Assembly (NCBI GenBank): GCA_029251405.1
Contig: JAQXDK010000001.1
Span: forward strand, 1 to 37,610
Origin: Flavobacteriales bacterium
GTDB lineage: Bacteria > Bacteroidota > Bacteroidia > Flavobacteriales_D > Parvicellaceae
Reading direction: 5' to 3'
DNA length: 37,610 bases
Shown: one piece after another, positions 3,676 through 8,787 of the stretch
Numbering within the stretch: position 1 is the stretch's first letter
Layout: every line of letters starts with the position of its first letter
The notes under the pieces: model-generated
What the model was told of the DNA's origin: nothing
What the model saw: the letters and a program-made list of their open reading frames with translations, nothing else
Databases searched by the model: none
Position numbers and translations under genes: made by a program

Positions 3676-3972
3676 TTAAATTTTAGAGTTAAGAATTTCT
3701 AAAAATTTAGTTTCAGATAGTACACCAGATTGTCTCCATTTTATTTCAGAATTTTGAAATAAAATAAATGTAGGTATTCCTTTAACTTGAAATCTGTTGG
3801 CAACTTGTTGGTTATTATCAACGTTGATTTTAATAATTTTAAGTTTATCCCCTAACTCTTTCTTAATATTTTTTAGTATTGGATTCATAGTTTTGCAAGG
3901 AGCACACCAATCTGCATGAAAATCTACTAAAACTGGATGATCACTTTTTATAATTTCTTGAAAAGTCCCCAT
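3676..3972 (-). CDS. Thioredoxin
   Basis: Small cytosolic thioredoxin of 98 residues with one thioredoxin fold. The redox site is WCAPC (residues 23-27) after the VLVDFHAD strand, and the cis-proline loop is GIPTF. There is no signal peptide. It starts one base after the stop of the persulfide dioxygenase/rhodanese gene, so the two form an operon. A thioredoxin is a sensible reductant for persulfides carried by rhodanese domains, but that link is inferred from position. WCAPC differs from the classical WCGPC; Ala here is common in bacterial thioredoxins. Confidence 0.93.
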   Translation of the reverse strand: MGTFQEIIKSDHPVLVDFHADWCAPCKTMNPILKNIKKELGDKLKIIKINVDNNQQVANRFQVKGIPTFILFQNSEIKWRQSGVLSETKFLEILNSKI

Positions 3973-3973
3973 T

Positions 3974-5368
3974 TTAATTTACGATTAGTTCATTTTGTAT
4001 TTTCACGGAAGTTTCTTCTGAAATTGCTGCAAATCCTCCTTGAATATCTACAATATTATTTATATTTTTTCTTTTCAAAAGCGAACAGGCAATCATAGAC
4101 CTATATCCTCCTTGACAATGCACATAGTTTTTTTTATTTGCATTATAATTTTCATAATTTTTTAAGAAGTTTCCTAGTGGAAGAAGTTGACTATTTAATA
4201 GATGACCATTTTCGTATTCGCTCTTTGCTCTTACATCAACTACATTAGAATCTGTGTTTATTTCTTTTTCGAATGCTAACGGACTTATTGATCTAACAGT
4301 ATCAGTTTCGTAGCCTTGTTTAATCCAAGTATCCATACCACCTTCTAAGTAACCAATGGTATTGTCAATTCCAACTCTTGATAATCTGGTTACAGCTTCT
4401 TCGACTCTACTAGGGTCTACAACTAATATTATTGGAGATTTAATATCTTCAATTACCGAAGCTGCCCAAGGTGCAAAACTTCCGTCTATTCCAACAAAAA
4501 TAGCTCCAGGAATATGAGCATTTGCAAAATCTTTAGGTTTTCGGCAATCAATAATTATGGATTTTTGCCTGTGTTTTTTAAAATCTGTAACATTTAAAGT
4601 GGTCATTCCATTATTGATTATTTTTTCAAATGGTTTGTTGATGGACTGATTCATTTGAACATTAATTGGAAAGTAATTGGGAGGAGACGCTAGTCCGAAG
4701 GTTACTTCTTTTACAAATTCATCAATTTTAAGATTGCTACTCAATGCATAATTAACTTTCTTTTGATTTCCTAAGTTATCAAAGGTCTCTTTACTCATGT
4801 TTTTTCCACATGCAGATCCTGAACCGTGTGCAGGATAAATAATGGTTTCATCTCGAAGTGGAAATATTTTTTCCCGAAGAGATTTGTAAAGAAGTTGGGC
4901 TAAATCTTTTTGGGATAAGTGACTTTTAACTGCTAAGTCTGGTCGACCAACATCGCCAATAAATAGGGTGTCTCCAGTAAAAATACAATGTTCTTTTTCA
5001 ATTTCATCAAATAACAGATAGCAGGTAGACTCTAAAGTATGACCAGGAGTATGTAATGCCTTTATTTTAACATCTCCTAATGCAAATATTTCATTATCAT
5101 AAGCAGTATGAAACTCAAATTCAGCCTTTGCATTTGGACCAAACACGATTTTTGCTCCAGTTTTCATGGCAAGATCTACGTGTCCAGAAACAAAATCGGC
5201 ATGAAAATGGGTAATGAAAATATATTTTAGAACAGTTTTCTCAGCTGCTATTTTATCTAGATATTTTTGTGTTTCTCTTAACGGATCTACTATAGCTGAT
5301 GCTTGACCAGATTTAATAAAATATGTTGCTTCTGAAAGGCAACCTGTATAAATTTGTTCTACTTTCAT
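3974..5368 (-). CDS. ETHE1-like persulfide dioxygenase fused to two rhodanese domains
   Basis: Predicted sulfur-oxidation enzyme of 464 residues in three parts. Residues 1-200 are a metallo-beta-lactamase fold with the persulfide dioxygenase pattern: THFHADFVSGH (H54, H56, D58, H63), TPGH (H110), TGDTLFIGDVGRPDL (D133) and PAHGSGSACGK (H181). Such enzymes oxidise glutathione persulfide or a related thiol persulfide to sulfite using mononuclear Fe. Residues about 265-355 are a rhodanese domain whose catalytic Cys position reads VVDPSR, so it is probably inactive. Residues about 370-460 are a second rhodanese with an intact loop, C418 in CQGGYRS. It is followed one base later by thioredoxin. 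Family assignment is strong; the exact substrate is not known. Confidence 0.9.
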   Translation of the reverse strand: MKVEQIYTGCLSEATYFIKSGQASAIVDPLRETQKYLDKIAAEKTVLKYIFITHFHADFVSGHVDLAMKTGAKIVFGPNAKAEFEFHTAYDNEIFALGDVKIKALHTPGHTLESTCYLLFDEIEKEHCIFTGDTLFIGDVGRPDLAVKSHLSQKDLAQLLYKSLREKIFPLRDETIIYPAHGSGSACGKNMSKETFDNLGNQKKVNYALSSNLKIDEFVKEVTFGLASPPNYFPINVQMNQSINKPFEKIINNGMTTLNVTDFKKHRQKSIIIDCRKPKDFANAHIPGAIFVGIDGSFAPWAASVIEDIKSPIILVVDPSRVEEAVTRLSRVGIDNTIGYLEGGMDTWIKQGYETDTVRSISPLAFEKEINTDSNVVDVRAKSEYENGHLLNSQLLPLGNFLKNYENYNANKKNYVHCQGGYRSMIACSLLKRKNINNIVDIQGGFAAISEETSVKIQNELIVN

Positions 5369-5447
5369 GTTGTAAAATTAATTATACTCTTTTGATATAC
5401 CCAATAGATTATAACTTTATTAACATCTTTAGTATTAAATTTACTTT

Positions 5448-6512
5448 ATGATTAGTGATTTGTGTTTATTCATATCTTGGAATGTAGATCCGGCTTTGTA
5501 TGATGGATTAATAACCTTAAGATACTACAGTTTATTTTTTGCTATTTCTTTTTTACTAGGTTTTAGTATTGTAAAAAAAATGTTTTTAAACGAAAATGCT
5601 CCTTTAGAATGGATGGATTCGTTATTAATGTACTGTGTAGTTGGGACCATTCTTGGAGCAAGGTTGGGACATGTTATATTCTACGATCCGGAATACTATT
5701 TAAATAATTTTCTAGAAATTTTTATGGTTTGGAAAGGCGGTTTAGCAAGCCATGGTGCAGCAATTGCTTTAATTGTTGCCATGTGGATTTTTTCAAAAAA
5801 AATAACTAAAAAACATACGTTATGGTCTTTGGATAAATTAGTAATTGCAGTTGCTTTAGCAGCTGGATTTATTAGAGTAGGGAATTTAATGAATTCAGAA
5901 ATTGTAGGAATCCAAACTAATAGTGAAACGAGCTTGTTTTATGAATACAAAGCAAAAGGTCAAATTTCTGTATTTTTTAATATTGACAAAGAAAAAATAC
6001 AATTTATTGAGACTAAAAAAGATACTTTAATCGATGGTGTTTTTTATCCAAAAAAATTGGTAAGCGTTCCCTTAGGTCCAAAAAAAATGAATCCCTATTT
6101 CGCAGAAGCTTTTTCAGATGCTTTTAGTTTTAAAGATCAATCCTCGGATGCAGATTTTTTTTCATCTAATAACTCCAAAGATTTTTCGTTAACTGCTTCT
6201 AACGAGATTGTTTTACCCATTTTTATTATTCGAAGAATACCCACTCAAATTTATGAAGCCATTTCTTATTGGACGATTTTCATTTTTTTATTTTGGGGTT
6301 ATTGGAAAAAGAAATGGTATTTATATCAAGGAAGATTATTTGGAATTTTCTTAACCTTACTTTTTGCTTCAAGGTTTTTTGTCGAATTTTTTAAAGAACA
6401 CCAAGCGTTATCTAATAACTCTTTCTTAACTATGGGACAATATTTAAGTGTTCCTTTAGTCATTGTAGGGCTACTTTTTTGGATTAAATCATCGAAAATT
6501 GATACTGACTAA
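5448..6512 (+). CDS. lgt: Prolipoprotein diacylglyceryl transferase
   Basis: Lgt transfers diacylglycerol from phosphatidylglycerol to the lipobox Cys of prolipoproteins in the inner membrane, the first step of lipoprotein maturation. The order of motifs fits: ITLRYYSLFFAISFLLG, GARLGHVIFYD, WKGGLASHGA (H102, the conserved His region), AAGFIRVGNLMNSEIVG (R143, the Lgt signature), and later RRIPTQIYEA and SRFFVEFFKEHQ. At 354 residues it is longer than the roughly 290 of E. coli Lgt. The excess is a polar insert of about 90 residues between NSEIVG and IPTQIYEA, likely a periplasmic loop; longer Lgt loops are usual in Bacteroidota. The 3' end overlaps the following ABC ATPase gene by 14 bases. 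Confidence 0.95.
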   Translation: MISDLCLFISWNVDPALYDGLITLRYYSLFFAISFLLGFSIVKKMFLNENAPLEWMDSLLMYCVVGTILGARLGHVIFYDPEYYLNNFLEIFMVWKGGLASHGAAIALIVAMWIFSKKITKKHTLWSLDKLVIAVALAAGFIRVGNLMNSEIVGIQTNSETSLFYEYKAKGQISVFFNIDKEKIQFIETKKDTLIDGVFYPKKLVSVPLGPKKMNPYFAEAFSDAFSFKDQSSDADFFSSNNSKDFSLTASNEIVLPIFIIRRIPTQIYEAISYWTIFIFLFWGYWKKKWYLYQGRLFGIFLTLLFASRFFVEFFKEHQALSNNSFLTMGQYLSVPLVIVGLLFWIKSSKIDTD

Positions 6513-7128
6513 AGATCTTTCTGTAAAATATGATAATCGTATAATTAATTTTCCAGATTTAGATATTAAATCTGGAGAGCATATATTGATTTTAGGAAAA
6601 AGTGGCTCTGGTAAAACATCTTTTTTAAACGTAATTGGAGGTTTATCTCGTCCTTATAGTGGTTTTGTTTCCATTAATTCAAAAACAATTGCTTCTCTTA
6701 GTAAAAATCAACTAGATGTATTTAGAGGATTAAATATTGGTTTTGTTTTTCAAACACCTCACTTTGTGAAATCATTAACTATAGAAAATAATTTACTTTT
6801 TAACCAATTTTTGGTGGGGAATACTAATAAAAATCATCTTAATAGGTTGTTGGAAAAAGTAGGTTTACTGAATCGAAAAGACGATCTTATAAATAACCTC
6901 AGTGAAGGAGAAAAACAAAGAATCTCCATTGTAAGAGCTTTAATAAATCAACCAAATATTATTTTAGCTGATGAGCCAACCTCTGCATTAGACGATGAAA
7001 ATTGTGAAATTGCAACTGACTTACTAAAGGAACTTTCCAAGGAAAACAATGCTTGTTTGATCATAGTTACTCATGATAGCAGACTGAAATCTAAATTTAA
7101 TCAATACGTAGAATTAGATGTTACTTAA
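6499..7128 (+). CDS. ABC transporter ATPase (MacB/LolD type, Zrm-like module)
   Basis: Cytosolic ABC ATPase of 209 residues. It has Walker A GKSGSGKT (33-40), the Q-loop in GFVFQTP, signature LSEGEKQR, Walker B IILADEPTS and the switch His in VTHD. LSEGE and ADEPTSALD are typical of the MacB/LolD branch that pairs with FtsX-like permeases. The start is a TTG at 6499 inside the end of lgt; the conserved LTKDLSVKY strand follows immediately, so a later start would cut the fold. It overlaps the permease gene downstream by 11 bases. The group lgt-ATPase-permease-CxxC protein looks like one operon. Its likely relation to PA4064 of Pseudomonas rests on the permease and the downstream gene, not on this protein alone. 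Confidence 0.9.
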   Translation: MILTKDLSVKYDNRIINFPDLDIKSGEHILILGKSGSGKTSFLNVIGGLSRPYSGFVSINSKTIASLSKNQLDVFRGLNIGFVFQTPHFVKSLTIENNLLFNQFLVGNTNKNHLNRLLEKVGLLNRKDDLINNLSEGEKQRISIVRALINQPNIILADEPTSALDDENCEIATDLLKELSKENNACLIIVTHDSRLKSKFNQYVELDVT

Positions 7129-8353
7129 ACTAGCTTGGAGAAATATTATTTACAGACCCTTTTCGTCAGGTCTTTCAATAGTCTTGTTAGCATCTTCGAT
7201 AATGATCATCGTCTTGGCTTTATTAACCATGCAGCAACTTGAAGATAAGTTTGACGAAAATGCAAATAAAGTAGATTTAGTTGTCGGAGCCAAAGGGAGC
7301 AGGCTTCAATTAGTACTTTGTAATATTTTTCATATCGATAATCCTACTGGAAATATAAATTTAGAGGATATTGATTTTTTATCTAAGCATCCCTTTGTTA
7401 AGTCTGCAGTTCCAATATCTCTAGGTGATAATTATAAATCATACAGAATCGTAGGTACTCAAGAAAGTTTTATTAGTAATTTATATTCTTCAAAATTAGC
7501 TGTCGGAAAATTATTTAAAAAATCTCAAGAAGTTGTTTTAGGAGCTAATGTTGCCAAAACATTAAAATTAAAGATTGGCGATAGTTTTTATGGAAGCCAT
7601 GGAATTGAAGCATCTCTTCATCAACATGGAAATGCTAAATATGAAGTAGTTGGTATTTTAAGTCCAACAGGACATATAATTGATAATTTGCTATTGACTT
7701 CTTTACAAACTATTTGGGATGCACATGCAGACAATCATCAGAAAGGCAGTTTTGATTTGAAAAAAGAAATAAAACATGATCACGCTCATCACCACGAAAA
7801 AACTACTAAGGAAATTACAGCATTACTTATAAATTACAGCTCACCAAGAGCAAAGTTTTCTATTCCCGGTTTAGTTAATAAGAAAAAGCAATTAATTGGT
7901 GCTGAGCCAGCCATAGAGATTCAAAGACTTTTAGACCTTATTTATCCAGCTGTCAAGGTAGTTTCAATATTAGCTTGGTTCATTTTTGGGTTATCTTTTT
8001 TAAGCATGTTAGTTACAATGATTAATTCCTTGAAGGATAGAAAATACGAAGTAGCAATGATGAGAGTTTCTGGGGCAACGTCTAAAATTGTTATATTTTC
8101 AATACTTTTAGAAGGTCTTTTGTTATCATTTATAGGATCTTTAATTGGTCTATTAATGGGACATTTTCTGATGTCTGTAATGGGTGTGTATTTAACAAAT
8201 AGTTACCATTATCAATTTACTGGCTTCATTTTTAACCCACTAGAACTATGGATATTTTTAGGAGCAGTTTTAATTGGTATTATTGCTGCATTTTCTCCTG
8301 CAATATCTTCATATAAAATCGATATTTCAAGAACTTTAAAAAATAAAATATGA
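7118..8353 (+). CDS. FtsX-like ABC permease with His-rich extracytoplasmic loop
   Basis: Permease of 411 residues with the MacB/FtsX topology: one N-terminal membrane segment (about 18-38), a large extracytoplasmic domain (about 45-275), then three segments near the C-terminus (about 280-300, 325-350, 375-395). The start LAWRNIIYRPFSSGLSIVLL and the region DLVVGAKGSRLQLVL are characteristic of this subfamily. The extracytoplasmic domain has HADNH (203-207) and HDHAHHH (220-226), a plausible metal-binding loop. It is flanked by its ATPase and by a small secreted protein in the same arrangement as Zur-regulated PA4064-PA4066. Transport of, or response to, Zn is inferred; the fold alone would also fit lipoprotein or peptide handling. 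Confidence 0.85.
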   Translation: MLLKLAWRNIIYRPFSSGLSIVLLASSIMIIVLALLTMQQLEDKFDENANKVDLVVGAKGSRLQLVLCNIFHIDNPTGNINLEDIDFLSKHPFVKSAVPISLGDNYKSYRIVGTQESFISNLYSSKLAVGKLFKKSQEVVLGANVAKTLKLKIGDSFYGSHGIEASLHQHGNAKYEVVGILSPTGHIIDNLLLTSLQTIWDAHADNHQKGSFDLKKEIKHDHAHHHEKTTKEITALLINYSSPRAKFSIPGLVNKKKQLIGAEPAIEIQRLLDLIYPAVKVVSILAWFIFGLSFLSMLVTMINSLKDRKYEVAMMRVSGATSKIVIFSILLEGLLLSFIGSLIGLLMGHFLMSVMGVYLTNSYHYQFTGFIFNPLELWIFLGAVLIGIIAAFSPAISSYKIDISRTLKNKI

Positions 8354-8787
8354 AAAATAAAATCATTTTAATAACAATTTCTTTTTTATTTAGTTTTCCT
8401 ATTTTTTCACAAAATATTATTTCTTGGGAGTTATTAAAAAATGTAGAATTTGATGAAATTTGGTCAGAAGAATTTCAAGCTTATTACATGGTTCCAAAAT
8501 TTTCAAGTTCTGTTAAAGTTTTAGATAATAAAGAAGTACAAATAAGAGGATTTATTATCCCTGTAGATATTGTTCAGGATTATTATGTTCTTTCTGCAAA
8601 TCCTTATAGTTCTTGTTTTTTTTGTGGACAGGCAGGTCCCGAGTCTGTCATGGAAGTTCAATTGATTAAAAAGTATGAAGGATTAAGAATGGATCAAGTT
8701 ATAACTTTTAAAGGAAAGTTAAAGCTAAATGTAGACGATATTTATCAATTAAATTACATTCTTGAAGATGCAGAAATCGTTGAGTAA
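8350..8787 (+). CDS. Small secreted DUF3299-like protein with CxxC
   Basis: Protein of 145 residues with a signal peptide (about 1-20, ending FSFPIFSQ). The mature part has a beta-rich region with VQIRGFIIPVD, then SSCFFCGQAGPES with C89 and C92, and ends with VITFKGKLKLNVDDIYQLNYILEDAEI. The layout (GFIIP, a Cys-containing middle, a GKLKL segment near the end) resembles DUF3299 proteins such as PA4066, though the CxxC form is the Bacteroidota version as I recall it. It has no lipobox Cys after the signal, so it is probably a soluble periplasmic protein. The start overlaps the permease stop (ATGA), marking it as a partner of the ABC transporter. A metal-binding role for the Cys pair is inferred. 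Confidence 0.75.
   Translation: MKNKIILITISFLFSFPIFSQNIISWELLKNVEFDEIWSEEFQAYYMVPKFSSSVKVLDNKEVQIRGFIIPVDIVQDYYVLSANPYSSCFFCGQAGPESVMEVQLIKKYEGLRMDQVITFKGKLKLNVDDIYQLNYILEDAEIVE

Follow-up and report, generated by a model that had tools for sequence, protein, structure and literature searches.

What does a small ATP-binding cassette (ABC) transporter do whose genes overlap lgt, the gene for prolipoprotein diacylglyceryl transferase? The question is raised by a 37,610-nucleotide stretch of a Flavobacteriales bacterium of the family Parvicellaceae (contig JAQXDK010000001.1 of assembly GCA_029251405.1, hereafter the window), in which lgt, an ABC ATPase, an FtsX/MacB-type permease and a small secreted CxxC protein are encoded by four overlapping open reading frames (ORFs) on the same strand (5448-8787). 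The module is real and conserved and its lgt part is ordinary; the interest lies in a set of invariant permease residues, in branches of the family that lack the DUF2796 protein ZrgA, and in a regulon prediction. We give about an even chance to the reading that the last three genes encode a ZrgA-less metal-handling (probably zinc-handling) mechanotransmission ABC module, a separate Bacteroidota branch of the kin of ZrgC-ZrgB-ZrgE and of PA4064-PA4066 from Pseudomonas aeruginosa. The features of the locus are as follows.

5369..5447 (no strand): short gap between a divergent metallo-beta-lactamase (MBL)-rhodanese gene and lgt, kept within the genus, without the palindrome TGCAA-N5-TTGCA
5448..6512 (+): lgt, prolipoprotein diacylglyceryl transferase, 354 amino acids (aa); PF01790 199 bits, TIGR00544 124.9 against a cut-off of 118.9
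6499..7128 (+): ABC ATPase, 209 aa, with a TTG start overlapping the end of lgt; PF00005 107 bits
7118..8353 (+): MacB/FtsX-type permease, 411 aa, homologue of PA4065/ZrgB; PF02687 53 bits, PF12704 42 bits
7598..7600 (+): codon of permease His161, extracytoplasmic domain (PA4065 His168); in 100/100 permeases
7625..7627 (+): codon of permease His170 (PA4065 His178); in 93/100 permeases
7724..7726 (+): codon of permease His203, base of the variable loop (PA4065 His211); in 100/100 permeases
7775..7795 (+): HDHAHHH, permease residues 220-226, variable His-rich loop
8350..8787 (+): small secreted protein with an oligonucleotide/oligosaccharide-binding (OB) fold, 145 aa, CxxC branch of DUF3299; PF11736 15.6 bits, below cut-off
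8614..8625 (+): CFFC motif, residues 89-92 of the small protein; C89 and C92 invariant in 19/19 aligned relatives

The window proteins matched LGT, ABC_tran, FtsX and MacB_PCD above the Pfam cut-offs, and the ATPase carries a Walker A motif at residue 33, a signature at 134, a Walker B motif at 154 and an H-loop at 190. Pfam families PF00005, PF02687 and PF12704, these motifs and the fold matches described below place the transporter in the MacB/FtsX-type ABC superfamily. The initial annotation had described four overlapping genes including a permease with HDHAHHH and a CxxC protein, which the ORF coordinates, Pfam matches and motif positions bear out.

Its second proposal, a likeness to the ATPase-permease-DUF3299 order of PA4064-PA4066, turned out to be homology. 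A profile of window permease relatives scored PA4065 at 244 bits, a Phaeobacter ZrgB at 249 bits and a Paracoccus permease at 126 bits; the P. aeruginosa record shows the order DUF2796-ATPase-permease-DUF3299, and the window module has the ATPase-permease-DUF3299 part of that order with a homologous permease. With PA4063-PA4066 and with zrgABCDE of Vibrio it also shares the same set of His and Asp residues in the permease and a PA4066-like fold of the small protein; it differs from them in having no ZrgA, in the position of its permease in the tree and in that no operator was found at the operon. Judged from sequence comparison, the relationship is one of homology and not of orthology, because a tree of 51 permeases falls into three groups (Bacteroidota, supported at 92/90; alkaline phosphatase-linked, 89/98; ZrgA- or adaptor-linked, 100/99) and because ZrgA (DUF2796, PF10986) was found above cut-off in none of 296 evenly drawn Bacteroidota genomes, four of which had matches at E 0.001 or better. 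ZrgA also had no match in the window's own genome. The midpoint root of the tree is a drawing aid, and the tree does not resolve how the three groups branched from one another; two LolC/E-like proteins encoded by the window's genome are very distant from them. Two contigs of metagenome-assembled genomes (MAGs) labelled Euryarchaeota (L106) and Ectothiorhodospiraceae (L084) carry modules that fall in the Bacteroidota group, by misbinning or transfer. One P. aeruginosa 'plasmid' record (L197, CP109682.1) bears the PA4063-PA4066 cluster together with genes that by eye look chromosomal.

The permease was present (E 1e-30) in 50 of the 296 Bacteroidota genomes, and the module is therefore an accessory, patchily spread system in this phylum. 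Its neighbourhood was compared in 80 loci, the best 80 of at least 583 confirmed relatives, which were recruited with two short permease motifs, include the two MAG contigs named above, in some cases end at a contig end, and had their genes called by a simple longest-ORF script. They overlap with a further set of 38 regions fetched from relatives of the window (at least L032, L033, L034, L037 and L069 are on common contigs). Among the 80 loci the ATPase gene directly precedes the permease gene in 78 and a DUF3299-like gene follows it in 70.

The assignment of the small protein needs more than its profile score. The name 'DUF3299-like' given to it earlier stands as to kinship, although Pfam DUF3299 (PF11736) scores it at only 15.6 bits, below the gathering cut-off of 22. 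All 19 aligned relatives matched DUF3299 weakly (E 1 or better, best E 1.1e-4), while three other families were each matched by a single aligned relative. An AlphaFold2 (AF2) model has an OB fold (predicted local distance difference test, pLDDT, 82.9), and the top match in the PDB was PA4066 itself (4HSP), both with Foldseek (E 1.1e-3, probability 1.00; next match 3.2e-3) and with VIA-align 2 (Z 9.5, root-mean-square deviation 5.0, 114 residues). The model thus has a PA4066-like OB fold, which by itself is not decisive because OB folds of unrelated proteins reach Z 9.0, practically a tie with 4HSP; it is the modelled fold, the weak profile match and the gene order combined that decide for a predicted kinship with DUF3299/PA4066. 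The CxxC pair noted earlier sets the protein apart from PA4066 and is not common to both: CxxC occurs in 89/89 small proteins of the Bacteroidota branch (the window's own plus 88 of the loci) and in 11/11 small proteins linked to alkaline phosphatase genes, and is absent from PA4066 and from the five other ZrgA- or adaptor-linked small proteins examined. The profile of the window's small protein scored the 11 phosphatase-linked proteins at 20.5-45.7 bits and PA4066 at only 14 bits, and did not match two further ZrgA- or adaptor-linked small proteins. The signal peptide was judged by eye. Weak sequence matches to PDB entries (PilB and a transfer protein) were taken as chance, and one DUF3299-like relative has a weak match to DUF1980_C (E 0.007), a possible distant kinship.

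The AF2 model of the permease (pLDDT 85.3) matches LolE, MacB and related chains, its nearest folds being of the MacB, LolC/E, heme exporter and FtsX types. We compared 100 permeases (the window's, those of the 80 loci and 19 from plasmid records, the latter hand-picked for variety) from Bacteroidota, Pseudomonadota and Deinococcota; D104, H161, D189 and H203 are present in all of them and H170 in 93. The equivalents in PA4065 are D105, H168, H178, D197 and H211, and alignment did not recover this His/Asp set in the two LolC/E-like proteins of the window's genome. A His-rich loop begins directly after H203, with pLDDT below 50 for residues 205-228. The HDHAHHH stretch reported earlier is there, and its His enrichment was confirmed (6 His among the 30 residues 204-233, Fisher p = 3e-4, for a stretch picked for its His; 14.1% His in the loop versus 2.0% elsewhere, pooled over the 100 permeases), but it is the variable part of the protein, with 1 to 27 His around the loop across the 80 loci, while H161, H203, D104 and D189 are invariant. 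PA4065 has a single loop His, in contrast to the window permease, and residues 204-233 hold 0-1 His in six plasmid-record permeases whose operons carry ZrgA (annotated in five, shown by tblastn for Aeromonas). The remaining 13 of the 19 plasmid-record permeases divide into seven with at least 6 loop His and six with 0-1. That the loop can stand in for the His-rich stretch of ZrgA is only suggestive, because the six ZrgA-linked permeases are kin and six ZrgA-less ones are also without the loop.

The mechanism that we propose for the genes at 6499-8787 builds on these folds and residues. Two ATPases and two permeases would assemble into a mechanotransmission machine of the MacB/LolCDE kind. Its membrane part would relay ATP-driven movement to the extracytoplasmic domain with no passage of substrate through the membrane. 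This domain may hold a metal site around H161, H203 and usually H170, together with D104 and D189, whose conservation is as given above. The disordered His-rich loop beside H203 would catch loosely bound metal, elsewhere the job of the His-rich ZrgA, and the secreted CxxC protein would pass on or receive the metal or a metal-carrying molecule. The metal is most likely zinc and the purpose presumably periplasmic zinc economy, as the Zrg homologues and the Pedobacter neighbourhood described below suggest; zrg mutants grow poorly at low zinc, and accounts of Vibrio describe a role of Zrg in zinc deficiency (PMC9820375, PMC9817125). More tentatively, and with clearly less confidence than in the reading for the window itself, we propose that an older zinc mechanotransmission family comprises the Zrg-type transporters as one of three or more branches. 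In this family the true metal site would be the permease His/Asp set (H161, H170, H203, D104, D189), the loop beside H203 would replace ZrgA in Bacteroidota and in part of the phosphatase branch, the CxxC protein would be a metal carrier and the job would be to supply periplasmic zinc enzymes. The ZrgA-less branches in other phyla suggest that ZrgA and the His loop are dispensable parts, and the same comparison points to permease H161, H203, D104 and D189 as a short list of candidate indispensable residues.

The link to zinc is seen most clearly in the gene context of Pedobacter. The gene immediately after the DUF3299-like gene(s) encodes a Fur-family protein in 17 of the 80 loci, 16 from Pedobacter and one from a Cyclobacteriaceae MAG (L092); two members matched PF01475 at 33.6 and 44.2 bits (cut-off 23.1). 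Upstream in these 17 loci there is a MerC-family gene in 15 and a CobW-type GTPase gene in 13 (MerC 85 bits and CobW-type 189 bits, one member each), and four further CobW-type genes occur in other loci of the 80. GTPases of this CobW type often act as zinc chaperones. The palindrome TGCAA-N5-TTGCA lies upstream in 16 of the 17 Fur-adjacent loci (25 sites, all in Pedobacter), compared with at most one locus in 300 shuffles. There are 36 copies of it in the 1.13 Mb of the 80 loci, against 0-9 for each of ten control palindromes (highest CTGAA-N5-TTCAG), and it stands near the starts of 13/15 and 4/4 genes of two MerC clusters and of 12/17 CobW-type genes. Pfam recognised MerC in one member of the first cluster and in two of the four in the second, which comes from three Cyclobacteriaceae-type loci and L070, all without an adjacent Fur-family gene; in L070 a CobW-type gene follows the MerC-cluster gene. 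In L051 and L111 the palindrome precedes a second DUF3299-like gene, which is followed by a CobW-type gene. Within the ZrgA branch, a Fur-family gene (Phaeobacter record) or a gene for a GTP-binding protein (Pseudooceanicola record) lies just upstream. Across the 296 genomes the regulator was found in 25/50 genomes with the module and in 62/246 others (p = 6e-4, kinship not corrected). These patterns are evidence for a predicted Pedobacter regulon of Zur type to which the module belongs, with a regulator that would sense zinc, and the Pedobacter loci thereby offer a candidate Zur-type regulator with the predicted operator TGCAA-N5-TTGCA. The zinc link put forward at the outset therefore holds in part: there is a zinc-type gene context in some Bacteroidota, but mainly in Pedobacter, and no operator was found in the window's lineage. 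Among the papers listed in literature searches, no account of this regulator or operator, nor of a Bacteroidota zinc regulon, was seen, and the Zur motifs in PMC3087516 come from Actinobacteria, Bacilli and Proteobacteria. Examples of loci with the palindrome are L040, L043 and L046 of Pedobacter, and also L070, L085, L091, L099, L051 and L111. Six Pedobacter loci (L046, L049, L064, L072, L086 and L103) have three tandem DUF3299-like genes between the permease and Fur-family genes.

In the window's own genome (97% complete) a relative of the Pedobacter regulator is encoded elsewhere (110 bits to the profile), with the same Cys and His residues as the Pedobacter protein. ZnuA was not found there at E 0.01, and there are three ZIP-type loci. 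Two frames above the cut-off for a CobW-type zinc GTPase, one of 1118 aa and one resembling a signal recognition particle protein, were set aside since by eye neither fits. The statement that no Zur box is recognisable holds for both patterns searched in the window, TGCAA-N5-TTGCA (none at 0-1 mismatch) and GTTATNNNATAAC, a consensus from other phyla. The single exact window match to GTTATNNNATAAC (6407-6419) is kept in 0/13 relatives and was treated as chance. One-mismatch copies of TGCAA-N5-TTGCA number 90 in the genome against 21 for the reversed pattern, a control that contains CG and is not well matched, and these copies were mostly not examined; no copy of the box in the window or its genome was convincing. 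The Pedobacter module stands with a Fur-family (Zur-type) gene; that of the window's lineage comes after lgt, apparently within one transcription unit, and without that operator. Since neither the operon nor the conserved promoter region contains the palindrome, expression of the window module is probably coupled to that of lgt and not governed by TGCAA-N5-TTGCA.

Several of the observations weigh against a zinc-handling module of this kind. That absence of the palindrome from the window, operon and promoter region included, is one, and its five exact copies in the window's genome all lie inside reading frames. The evidence from gene neighbours stems largely from Pedobacter, whose sixteen loci are not independent, and the palindrome is also absent from L092, the sole non-Pedobacter locus of the 17. 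Half of the genomes with the module lack the regulator at E 1e-15. Invariance alone is no proof of a metal site, because G103, G142, G162, P264, G319 and P394 are likewise present in 100/100 permeases, and fewer than three loop His occur in 23 of the 81 permeases of the Bacteroidota group. As described in PMC9820375, zrgE alone had no growth phenotype in Vibrio cholerae and the His-rich region of its ZrgA was not essential. A homologue in P. aeruginosa has been argued to export a cobalt-pyochelin complex (PMC11481552), and PMC8561739 treats the role of PA4063 and PA4066 as unsettled; published accounts of the model systems disagree, with zinc acquisition in Vibrio on one side and pyochelin-cobalt export in Pseudomonas on the other. 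A phosphatase-linked branch exists, and in two of its loci (L208, L210) a gene for a PCu(A)C copper chaperone is nearby. We came across no zinc experiment on a Bacteroidota member.

The overlap with lgt invites a different explanation, namely that a LolCDE-like transporter acts together with Lgt in the sorting of lipoproteins. LolD is indeed the best NCBIfam match of the ATPase (171.8 bits against a cut-off of 307.75), LolE is among the nearest permease folds, and the module shares with LolCDE and MacB a MacB-superfamily ATPase and the permease fold. The LolCE model, however, scores the window permease at 32.9 bits and two other permeases of the genome at 145 and 171 bits; none reaches the cut-off of 362.45, so that LolCDE membership was rejected on this ranking and not on the cut-off, the LolC/E-like pair, in which alignment did not recover the His/Asp set, being below it as well. 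The genome also has one FtsX-like permease. The patchy spread of the module speaks against sorting too, and only 3 of the 80 loci, each belonging to the window's genus, have lgt next to the ATPase gene, while one more has it two genes away. Of the 38 fetched regions, 24 have lgt upstream, and every one of these belongs to the window's family (several of the remaining 14 stop at a contig end); no other gene was recognised between lgt and the ATPase gene in 17 of the 24, and a PhoX-type gene stands between them in seven (PhoX 157 bits for one member). A functional link with lgt as the principal explanation was rejected because the adjacency is confined to close relatives and PhoX intervenes in part of the family, and we regard lipoprotein sorting as highly improbable. 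Two suggestions of the initial annotation fare poorly as well. A module 'fused to lipoprotein maturation' is not supported, the lgt neighbourhood being synteny at the family level and the genome having two other permeases much closer to LolC/E, and lgt does not 'stand in place' of a missing DUF2796 gene, given the absence of ZrgA above cut-off from all 296 Bacteroidota genomes and the rarity of lgt beside the module. Nothing that we found supports a lipoprotein role; lgt is an upstream neighbour, probably co-transcribed with the module and probably not part of its function. The PhoX-bearing loci L037 and L069 are basal in the permease tree, which only hints at a loss of PhoX.

Other explanations keep the extracytoplasmic machine and change its cargo. 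Export by a MacB-like machine of a metallophore, free or metal-bound, or of some other small periplasmic molecule, with the His/Asp set recognising the metal-bound form, would accord with the LolE/MacB-type fold and with the report on pyochelin-cobalt export, and a gene for a biotin/lipoyl-binding protein lies directly upstream in two Rhodobacterales relatives; but no adaptor was seen beside the window module, no MacA-type adaptor being found among the ORFs between positions 2567 and 11982 (by eye except for six Pfam-scanned proteins; the rest of the genome was not searched), and one adaptor query sequence matched nothing in the 80 loci. We find an exporter rather doubtful. That the permease imports zinc into the cytoplasm, the original proposal for Zrg but here without ZrgA, is very unlikely: such uptake would explain the low-zinc phenotype of zrg mutants and would suit a genome in which no ZnuA was found, but the three ZIP-type loci could import zinc, and the nearest permease folds are of the types named above, none of which is known as an importer. 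The module might, finally, load metal into extracytoplasmic phosphatases and other metalloenzymes, or help to mature and release them. In all 11 phosphatase-linked loci examined, from Alphaproteobacteria and Deinococcota, an alkaline phosphatase gene directly precedes the DUF3299-like, ATPase and permease genes (PF00245 was confirmed for seven of the 11 phosphatases, the other four resting on record annotation), and their small proteins match the window-family profile. These operons, such as those of Paracoccus pantotrophus pPAN2 and Deinococcus radiodurans pMP1, resemble the window module in that no ZrgA is annotated, in the His/Asp set and in the CxxC protein, and 5 of the 11 permeases have at least 6 loop His; they differ in that the small-protein gene comes first, the phosphatase gene is attached and their permeases form a tree group of their own. 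In 8 of the 38 fetched regions the ATPase gene is immediately preceded by one for PhoX, a different phosphatase. In the window's genus, though, PhoX is absent beside the module, it is beside it in only two of the 80 loci (both also among the 38 regions), three alkaline phosphatase queries matched nothing in the 80 loci and PhoX is not known to be a zinc enzyme; we consider metalloenzyme loading unlikely. Among the papers listed in a literature search for DUF3299 with alkaline phosphatase, none was relevant. The phosphatase-linked loci, all from plasmid records, are L112, L201, L202, L205-L210, L213 and L214.

The arrangement around the window module is stable among close relatives. All 10 same-genus regions keep the divergent MBL-rhodanese gene, lgt, the ATPase, permease and DUF3299-like genes and a convergent kdtA, and the TTG start of the ATPase gene within the end of lgt is kept as well. 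The MBL-rhodanese and thioredoxin genes at 3676-5368, divergent from lgt, are kept in 10/10 and 9/10 of these regions, respectively. Lgt itself, with 354 aa against 240 positions of the Pfam model, has by eye an apparent insertion around residues 170-260.

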